A stretch of 59,014 nucleotides of DNA from an uncultured Pelagibacteraceae bacterium (GTDB lineage Bacteria; Pseudomonadota; Alphaproteobacteria; Pelagibacterales; Pelagibacteraceae), in contig CACIVM010000004.1 in assembly GCA_902590115.1 (NCBI GenBank), positions 1-59,014 on the forward strand. Reading direction: 5' to 3'. Positions within the stretch are counted from its first letter, which is position 1. Every line of letters begins with the position of its first letter. Made by a program: the position numbers and the translations under genes. The notes under the pieces were generated by a model, which was not told where the DNA came from, did no database searches, and saw nothing but the letters and a program-made list of their open reading frames with translations. This document shows, piece by piece, positions 9,599 to 13,089 of the stretch.

Positions 9599-9984
9599 TA
9601 GAATTAGAAAAAAATAAATTAGTCGGTATAACAGCACTTCTTGTTAATGCTGCTAAAATAGATGAACATTATACAGATAGTGAAAAAAAAATAATACTTA
9701 AGTTTATTAAGAACAATAATACTAAATTAGATGCGAGTGAGATAATTAAAGAGGCAGAAATCCTTGAAAAAGAGTCTAATCAATTACTAAGTTTTACTAA
9801 ATTAATTAAGAATGAGACAAATGAATTTAAAGAAAACATAATTGAACAATTGTGGAAAATAATTATTTCAGATAAAAGTATTGATCAATTTGAGTCAAAT
9901 TTTATGAGAAGAATATGTGGTTTAATTTATTTCGATGATAAATTAAGCGGTGAAATTAAACTGAGATTAAAAAAAGGACTATGA
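9595..9984 (+). CDS. TerB-like all-helical protein
   Basis: A 129-residue, predicted all-helical protein. The region [20 protein letters not shown] followed by EKKIILKFI, and a second half with [21 protein letters not shown], match the TerB fold in which acidic residues of two helix pairs face each other. TerB proteins are linked to tellurite resistance and membrane stress, but small stand-alone members have no known role. It overlaps the helicase gene and the ferredoxin gene by 4 bases each. From memory, related alphaproteobacteria often carry a small S4-domain RNA-binding gene at this position, so this may be a lineage-specific neighbour. Confidence 0.72.
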
Positions 9985-10322
9985 CATATATTGTTAAAGA
10001 TGAGTGTATAAAATGTAAATTGACCGACTGTGTAGAGGTTTGTCCGGTGGATTGCTTTTATGAAGGAGAAAATATGTTAGTAATTAATCCAGATGAATGT
10101 ATTGACTGTGGAGTGTGTGAGCCTGAATGTCCAATAGATGCAATCAAAGCTGATAGTGATGAGACTGTAGAAGATAAAGAAAAATGGTTGTTGATAAATA
10201 AAAAGTTTTCTGCAATATGGCCCAATATTACCAAAAAGAAAGAGCCTATGATAGAAAGTGATAAATATAAAAATATGAAAAATAAACACGAGAAACATTT
10301 TTCAGAAAAACCTGGTAAATAA
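9981..10322 (+). CDS. fdxA: 7Fe ferredoxin (FdxA type)
   Basis: A 113-residue soluble ferredoxin with one [3Fe-4S] and one [4Fe-4S] site. The first cluster region is [17 protein letters not shown], with the widened spacing typical of 7Fe ferredoxins, and the second is [16 protein letters not shown]. The C-terminal tail of about 50 residues ([20 protein letters not shown]) is characteristic of the alphaproteobacterial FdxA family. The partner enzyme is unknown. It lies between the TerB-like gene and carD, a conserved alphaproteobacterial pairing with carD. Confidence 0.93.
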
Positions 10323-10323
10323 A

Positions 10324-10995
10324 ATGGCGAAAAAAAAGAAAAAAACCAAAAAGGTGAAAAAAATAAAAAAGATTATTAAAAAAAAATTAAGCAAAAATGT
10401 AACTTTAAAGCAAAATGATTCACAAAAAGTATTAAAACTTGGGCAAGATGAAAAACCTGAGATTAAGAAGATCAAAAAACAACCAACTGAAAAAAGAGCA
10501 TATAATTTAAAAGATTTTGTAGTTTATCCGAAACATGGTGTAGGAAAAATTACAGGCATCGAAAAAGCAACAATTGGCCAAATAGAGATTCAATTTTATA
10601 AAATTTTTATTGAGAGAGAAAAGCTTACTTTGACAGTGCCAATCAATCAGCAGTCTAATTTGAGACCAATATCATCTATAAATCAGATAAACAAATGTGT
10701 CTCTATTTTAAAAACTAAGCCAAAAATTCGAAGAACAATGTGGAGTAGACGTGCACAGGAATATGATCAAAAAATTAATTCAGGAAAAATCTATGATTTA
10801 GCTGAGGTAGTTAAAGACCTTAATAAAAACACAGATATCATGGCTGATCAATCTTATTCTGAAAGACAACTTTTTGAAAAAGCCTATGACAGACTTAAAT
10901 CAGAATTTGAAGCAGTTTTGAAGATTAGTTCCGAAGACGTACAGAAAAAAATGGATAAGGCTTTAGGAAGAGTTCAGATTTCTGAAGCACAATAA
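10324..10995 (+). CDS. carD: CarD-family RNA polymerase-binding regulator
   Basis: A CarD-type regulator of 223 residues that binds the RNA polymerase beta subunit and stabilises open promoter complexes, especially at rRNA promoters. The RNAP-interacting domain starts near residue 62 with LKDFVVYPKHGVGKITGIE, and the helical DNA-binding C-terminal domain follows (RRAQEYDQKINSG, YSERQLFEKAYDRL). Residues 1-55 form an unusually long Lys-rich extension (about half Lys) that could bind nucleic acid. The start is one base after the fdxA stop. A two-way terminator follows directly. Confidence 0.92.
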   Translation: MAKKKKKTKKVKKIKKIIKKKLSKNVTLKQNDSQKVLKLGQDEKPEIKKIKKQPTEKRAYNLKDFVVYPKHGVGKITGIEKATIGQIEIQFYKIFIEREKLTLTVPINQQSNLRPISSINQINKCVSILKTKPKIRRTMWSRRAQEYDQKINSGKIYDLAEVVKDLNKNTDIMADQSYSERQLFEKAYDRLKSEFEAVLKISSEDVQKKMDKALGRVQISEAQ

Positions 10996-10996
10996 A

Positions 10997-11033
10997 AAAC
11001 GCCCTTTTTATAGATTTTAAAAAGGGCGTTTTT
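10997..11033. terminator. Bidirectional intrinsic terminator between carD and the 22-aa gene
   Basis: A 14-base perfect stem (AAACGCCCTTTTTA / TAAAAAGGGCGTTT, 10997-11010 and 11018-11031) with a 7-base loop. T-runs follow the stem on both strands, so it can end transcription of carD (+) and of the small basic gene (-). It is one of only three strong intrinsic terminators seen in the window. Confidence 0.92.
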
Positions 11034-11043
11034 AAAAAAGAAG

Positions 11044-11112
11044 TTATCTTCTTCTTCTTCTTCTTCTTTTAGCTTTTTTCTTCTTTTTAGCTTTTTTTCT
11101 TCGTTTAGCCAT
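11044..11112 (-). CDS. 22-residue Lys/Arg-rich peptide
   Basis: A 22-codon frame beginning MAKRRKKAKK and ending in seven consecutive Arg (all AGA). Apart from the initial Met and three Ala, every residue is Lys or Arg. A strong Shine-Dalgarno, AGGGAG, lies 6 bases upstream of the ATG. A TTGACA element lies about 75 bases upstream, and the two-way terminator lies 11 bases past the stop. This full set of signals argues for a real, well-expressed gene. The composition suggests binding to nucleic acid or to the ribosome, but the function is unknown. The Arg codons form an (AGA)7 repeat, which could also expand or contract. Confidence 0.72.
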   Translation of the reverse strand: MAKRRKKAKKKKKAKRRRRRRR

Positions 11113-11321
11113 CTTTTCTCCCTGTTAGCAAACAAATCTTTATGATTCGTTTTATTAATTAATCTTTAAGTTTTTTTTCTTTGATGTCAAACACAAATTG
11201 TTGAGTAATTTTTTTTTAAATTTATAAATTTTTTATTTTTTTTATTAAAATTAAATATATATAAAAAGTTAAGTAATATCAGTGTTTTTTTAAGATAATT
11301 TAAATTACTTTTTTTATTAAA
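11113..11321. other. AT-rich intergenic stretch
   Basis: About 209 bases between the start of the 22-residue gene and the end of the fatty acyl-CoA ligase gene. Its left part carries the Shine-Dalgarno and probable promoter of the small gene. The rest is nearly all A and T, with short palindromes such as TAATTTAAATTA but no convincing terminator, RNA or open frame. Confidence 0.6.
11162..11190 (-). promoter_or_regulatory. Possible promoter of the 22-aa gene
   Basis: On the minus strand a perfect TTGACA (11190-11185) is followed, after 17 bases, by AAAGAT (11167-11162), a weak -10 element. The perfect -35 and its placement upstream of a strong Shine-Dalgarno support it; the -10 match is only partial. 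Confidence 0.4.
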
Positions 11322-13002: not shown

Positions 13003-13089
13003 TGGTGGGCGAAGAGAGACTCGAACTCTCAAGGTATTGCTACCACCGGATTTTGAGTCCGGCGCGTCTACCAGTTCCACCATTCGCCC
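13003..13089 (-). tRNA. tRNA-Leu (anticodon CAA)
   Basis: An 87-base tRNA on the minus strand. Acceptor stem GGGCGAA pairs with TTCGCCC, followed by discriminator A and an encoded CCA (13005-13003). The anticodon loop CTCAAAA between CCGGA and TCCGG gives CAA (13055-13053), reading UUG. The long variable arm (GGTGGTAGCAATACC region) and T-loop GTTCGAGTC are those of a class II leucine tRNA. It lies between the double winged-helix gene and the acyl-CoA ligase gene, on the same strand as both. Confidence 0.96.

Follow-up and report, generated by a model that had tools for sequence, protein, structure and literature searches.

A conserved polybasic gene beside carD in SAR11 bacteria and its candidate role as a miniaturised histone-H1-like tail

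Bacterial histone-H1-like proteins include Chlamydia Hc2/HctB and the C-terminal repeats of Pseudomonas AlgP and PhaF. Their sequences are Lys/Ala(/Pro)-rich and presumably disordered, and the length of the repeats varies between close relatives. AlgP, with its Lys-Pro-Ala-Ala repeats, both binds DNA and acts on polyphosphate (polyP) granules (PMC9239181). A second relevant system is the GcrA/CcrM module. In Caulobacter, activation by GcrA involves the extended motif YGAKTCK (TGATTCG), whereas no such extension was found for Brevundimonas; the same survey predicted few GcrA/CcrM targets for SAR11 (PMC7987155). SAR11 bacteria possess a CcrM homologue and show a GANTC bias (PMC3973325), and are reported to lack CtrA (PMC2877005).

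The gene considered here lies in a 59,014-nucleotide stretch of DNA from an uncultured Pelagibacteraceae bacterium (the window). Its long SAR11 homologues carry AAPKKK/KPAA-like repeats and in this respect resemble HctB and AlgP, whereas the window member has 22 residues, is Arg-rich and contains no Pro. Unlike those proteins, the SAR11 protein also has no folded N-terminal domain and no match to a curated model, and its gene adjoins carD. The promoter invites the second comparison. As at alphaproteobacterial GcrA/CcrM promoters, a TGATTCG sequence (YGAKTCK) lies by a sigma-70-type promoter, and GcrA and a RAMA-domain methylase are present; the difference is that the SAR11 candidate site is downstream of the predicted transcription start, within a 5' hairpin.

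The 22-codon gene and its signals

The product consists of Lys and Arg (82% K+R) and three Ala residues. Among the window's other ATG frames of at least 20 codons, the most basic reaches 38% K+R, and in 60 second-order Markov shuffles no frame attained 80%, the maximum being 50%. As the frame is an outlier in both comparisons, a chance origin is dismissed. The original prediction had described such a frame, together with a strong Shine-Dalgarno (SD) sequence, a perfect TTGACA and a two-way terminator. All are present (Table 1), and the discrepancies in spacing (6 versus 5 nt between SD and ATG, 11 versus 10 nt between the stop codon and the 16-pair terminator stem) are counting points only. 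It had also noted that the gene faces carD, whose product has a Lys-rich extension; this is correct, the extension preceding the RID domain at residue 63. The list of features was nevertheless incomplete, as the 5' hairpin, the invariant CGAATCA of GcrA/CcrM type and the longer homologues had been overlooked. The promoter is missing from the list returned by a promoter scan of the window because its −10 element is weak.

Table 1. Features of the polybasic gene and its surroundings in the window.
Feature	Position	Strand	Basis
Polybasic gene, 22 codons, ATG to TAA, product MAKRRKKAKKKKKAKRRRRRRR	11044..11112	-	Window sequence; kept in same-genus loci, other genera and a second family
Shine-Dalgarno GGGAG, 5 nt 5' of ATG	11118..11122	-	GGGAG-type SD maintained across alignment
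−35 element TTGACA	11185..11190	-	Window sequence and same-genus alignment
Probable −10 element TAAAGA, 16-nt spacer	11163..11168	-	Inferred from sequence and alignment
5' leader hairpin AAACGAATC-ATAAA-GATTTGTTT, 9 pairs including one G.U	11130..11152	-	Alignment and folding of leaders
Invariant CGAATCA (other strand TGATTCG), candidate CcrM-methylated GcrA site	11143..11149	-	Leader comparison
Two-way intrinsic terminator, common to the gene and carD	10995..11033	both	16-pair stem, T-runs on both strands
carD (CarD RID and C-terminal domains), Lys-rich N-terminal extension	10324..10995	+	Convergent neighbour in every lineage seen

Distribution and length of the protein

Searches with so short and repetitive a peptide are unreliable, so carD served as the anchor for locating relatives. 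At the same-genus carD loci (L002-L030), frame, start, SD, TTGACA and two-way terminator align in 29 of 29, the upstream region being partial at L026, L011 and L022, which are cut by a contig edge. The frame is neither broken there nor a freely varying AGA repeat, the outcomes that would have spoken against the original prediction; ATG, SD, frame and stop are intact at all 29. The expected synonymous changes are also seen, with AAA/AAG and AGA/CGT/CGA exchanged among relatives (AAA 1864, AAG 649; AGA 1158, CGT 20, CGA 11). Genomes that gave no carD match are mostly incomplete; some (G006, G079, G205 and G222) are more than 90% complete and likewise gave none, which may reflect either absence or a missing contig.

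The gene also adjoins carD in genera g5, g7, g8, g10, g12 and g13, and in f2, a second family of the order. Of 22 further carD loci it is present at 21, of which 20 belong to genus g6 and one to g5; the exception, L295, meets a contig edge 206 bases past carD. TTGACA lies upstream in 196 of 203 distinct leader-and-gene pairs, and the terminator stem differs in sequence among genera but remains strong. A leader-plus-start pattern (CGAATCA, 1-7 nt, ATTYGT, 3-24 nt, ATGGCTAA), which is blind to ATGCC starts and to rebuilt 3' arms, matches 151 of 397 genomes of the order, with one copy per matching genome and none in a reversed control. One homologue (L111) starts with GTG and is included in the protein counts. 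In genome G408 (loci L062/L113) an apparent indel or frameshift in an A-rich run, which may be an assembly error, carries the frame past the usual AGATAG stop and extends the product to 47 residues.

At 30 carD loci from other alphaproteobacterial orders no convincing polybasic frame adjoins carD, and tblastn with the 22-mer found no match in phages. Searching the class with a profile of the long f2 form gave no match either; this null does not show absence, since the sample listed no f2 genome and the window's own genome was unmatched by either profile. On the sequences compared, every SAR11 lineage sampled retains the polybasic gene, and it is almost certainly a real, conserved coding gene. 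Given that SAR11 bacteria rank with the most abundant on Earth, a gene present in all sampled lineages would be among the commonest in the sea. It is too small for the usual gene finders, and trypsin would cut its product to fragments, leaving it invisible to standard proteomics.

The 203 leader-and-gene pairs encode 90 distinct proteins, which range from 20 to 91 residues and differ by many in-frame indels. In 83 of the 90 (those up to about 38-40 residues), the residues after the start are limited to K (1075), R (517), A (353), T (59), P (16), G (7) and S (7). These short proteins lack acidic, aromatic and aliphatic residues, although several such residues lie one base from AAA or AGA; single-base changes of AAA could yield E, Q, N, I or a stop. 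Outside the MAKR start and basic tail there is little position-specific identity, and length is loosely held, as expected for a charge-driven disordered binder.

Homologues in the same place are 80-91 aa long in f2 and 34-58 aa in g8, both with Lys/Ala/Pro repeats. A quick tree of CarD sequences, with other alphaproteobacteria as the root, leaves several inner forks open and places L108 on a long branch; its earliest split is that of f2 (80-91 aa), followed by the f1 lineages g5, g7, g8 and g12 (31-58 aa). The crown, comprising the window's genus, g9 and g6, has proteins of 20-35 aa (SH-aLRT 99 for the group). The length classes thus nest on the tree, and the simplest reading is shrinkage of the protein toward the crown. 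Growth in the other lineages is a possible converse, since the loci of other orders show no counterpart beside carD that would fix the direction. In either case the homologues form a natural deletion series, from 91 to 20 residues, that bears on how little of an H1-like tail still works.

The leader and its invariant heptamer

CGAATCA occurs in 184 of 185 distinct leaders, the remaining one having CGAATCG. It forms the 5' arm of the leader hairpin and lies 40-43 nt from the start of TTGACA, at about +5 relative to the predicted transcription start; the distance from TTGACA to ATG is 76-103 nt. The hairpin element AACGAATCA...GATTYGTT is found in exactly one copy in 33 of 41 same-genus genomes and not at all in the reversed control.

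The 3' arm is less constant. It is mostly GATTCGT in g6; in the window's genus (GATTTGTTT) GATTC has become GATTT, which keeps a G.U pair but loses the second GANTC, a methylase site. The arms pair as ATCACATAA/TTATGTGAT or ATCACTTAA/TTAAGTGAT in g5 and g12, as TCACTTAAAA/TTTTAAGTGA in g8, and as GAATCAC/GTGATTC or GAATCAA/TTGATTC in f2; in g5 and g8 the 3' arm has been replaced with pairing retained. Since pairing survives a change of partner and the heptamer is fixed whatever its partner, two separable constraints can be distinguished. The stem taken alone falls within the shuffled range in f2 and in one leader of g7 (shuffle fraction 0.09-0.31).

Several observations point to the GcrA/CcrM module. 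The complement of the heptamer, TGATTCG, fits YGAKTCK, the motif taken from Caulobacter, and a conserved GANTC with the extended sequence is thus found at the promoter. In profile searches, GcrA was detected in 13 of 14 genomes of the order and a RAMA-domain methylase in 14 of 14, so both GcrA and a CcrM-type methylase are available; Caulobacter was positive in both searches, and the GcrA control also matched Sulfolobus. In the window, GAATC and GATTC are depleted about fourfold in coding DNA (25 versus 105 expected) and not in intergenic DNA (5 versus 4.8 expected). GACTC and GAGTC are not depleted; avoidance of GANTC as a whole therefore does not describe the pattern, and GAWTC seems to be the word avoided. 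The pattern TTGACA-N25-45-CGAATCA is present in one copy in 12 of 15 genomes and adjoins carD wherever carD coordinates are available, with 5 chance hits in the reversed control.

In the proposed mechanism, CcrM would methylate the GAATC site at the promoter and GcrA would read the methylated site, making expression follow replication of the locus, in parallel with eukaryotic histone synthesis tracking S phase. The chances that GcrA/CcrM controls the gene are judged to be about even. This step is one that we infer, since a position near +5 is unlike that of a classical activator site and methylation is only predicted. The gene is, in any event, a concrete candidate target of the GcrA/CcrM module in SAR11.

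Because the site lies inside the hairpin, conservation of CGAATCA could partly be maintained at the RNA level. Carried to its end, this would make heptamer and hairpin a stabilising or regulatory 5' leader (for example, for feedback by the peptide) with no part for GcrA/CcrM, a possibility to be taken seriously that falls somewhat short of an even chance. Nearly every leader forms the stem, and its arms have been rebuilt from lineage to lineage; the window's genus has given up the methylase site yet retains the G.U pair, and the exchanged 3' arms of g5 and g8 still pair. Pairing of the SD also differs by length class, averaging 0.84 in the 31-58 aa class versus 0.25 in the short forms (0.41 in f2). 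An RNA-only role does not account as readily for a 5' arm fixed regardless of its partner and held at constant distance from the −35 element, or for the presence in it of a word depleted from the window's coding DNA. In the transcript as proposed, a short 5' hairpin would stabilise or tune the message and the 3' end would lie at the terminator common with carD.

In five leaders from the 31-58 aa lineages (L109, L112, L114, L117 and L118), a CUCC element can pair with the SD, which suggests translational control in these lineages that is absent in the short-form ones. Other roles for the leader were rejected: it is not an operator common to many genes, being single-copy in each genome, nor a leader peptide or attenuator, the only downstream gene being the convergent carD. 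Four additional RNA motifs described by Meyer et al. 2009 adjoin other genes, and carD is not mentioned in the main text of that paper. An Rfam search of the window and six loci returned tRNAs only.

Nature of the peptide and its neighbours

The gene product is proposed to be a miniaturised histone-H1-tail-like polybasic protein of Pelagibacterales. A peptide so dominated by charge would bind nucleic acid irrespective of sequence, and would most likely coat and compact the chromosome in the manner of the H1 tail, of HctB and of the AlgP repeats. Pfam and NCBIfam gave no meaningful match for any length class (E up to 10; chance hits to unrelated families only), no H1-like family profile among them, and a PDB sequence search matched neither the short nor the long form; kinship to H1-like proteins accordingly rests on composition and repeats. 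A Lys/Ala/Pro-rich repeat composition is found in the f2 (80-91 aa) and g8 (34-58 aa) forms, and the window 22-mer has K, R and A only. Bacterial H1-like proteins are the closest kind and the peptide may work alike, outside any curated family. H1-like binding to the chromosome is judged probable from composition. The fuller model, a minimal H1-like nucleoid peptide whose promoter is under CcrM/GcrA and whose expression follows replication, stands at an even balance. More tentative is the proposal that the SAR11 peptide of 20-30 K/R residues, derived by reduction of an H1-like protein and tied to replication via CcrM/GcrA, ranks with the smallest chromatin proteins known; SAR11, for which a lack of CtrA is reported, would then have a bacterial parallel to the coupling of histone supply with replication.

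The original prediction had suggested an abundant nucleic-acid- or ribosome-binding peptide, perhaps a minimal chromatin factor. A conserved, independently expressed gene for a peptide of this type is well supported, and the H1-tail-like homologues favour chromatin over the ribosome; high abundance and binding itself are predictions. In ribosomal proteins such as eL41 (eukaryotic/archaeal), bTHX and bS22 (both bacterial), a basic peptide fills a groove in rRNA. The SAR11 gene is likewise very short, highly basic and separate, and its size (20-30 aa), charge, strong SD, own terminator and order-wide conservation would all suit a small ribosome-associated protein made from its own strong mRNA. 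Such a role is nonetheless unlikely. The lengths of 20-91 residues, with many in-frame indels, contrast with the near-constant length of those proteins, and no conserved aromatic or hydrophobic residue offers an anchor that would fit rRNA. No curated ribosomal family in Pfam (E up to 10) and no solved ribosomal chain in the PDB was matched, in searches of low power for a low-complexity 22-mer, and the long homologues are H1-tail-like.

Decidedly unlikely, too, is a general polyanion binder (of polyP or RNA, or a membrane counter-ion) in place of a chromatin protein. AlgP, which acts on polyP granules besides binding DNA (PMC9239181), offers a precedent, but the neighbourhood has no polyP link and the adjoining gene, carD, encodes a transcription factor. 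That the frame is no gene at all, but a varying AGA/AAG repeat within a 3' region left open by accident, is exceedingly improbable: the sequence is of low complexity, the Arg run varies in length and one relative runs beyond the usual stop, but the start codon, SD, reading frame, stop, promoter and set of residues are conserved across the 90 distinct proteins, which refutes this as a general account.

The Lys-rich N-terminal extension of CarD, of about 55 residues, recurs in several further CarD proteins of Pelagibacterales; for most CarD matches from other alphaproteobacterial orders, the alignment begins only at about residue 45-60 of the query. Directly 5' of carD, a 113-aa frame with ferredoxin-type cysteine clusters occupies 9981-10322 (+). 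Further along, a tRNA gene (13006-13089, -; Rfam RF00005, 54.3 bits) lies between an AMP-ligase-like gene and the next reverse-strand frame.
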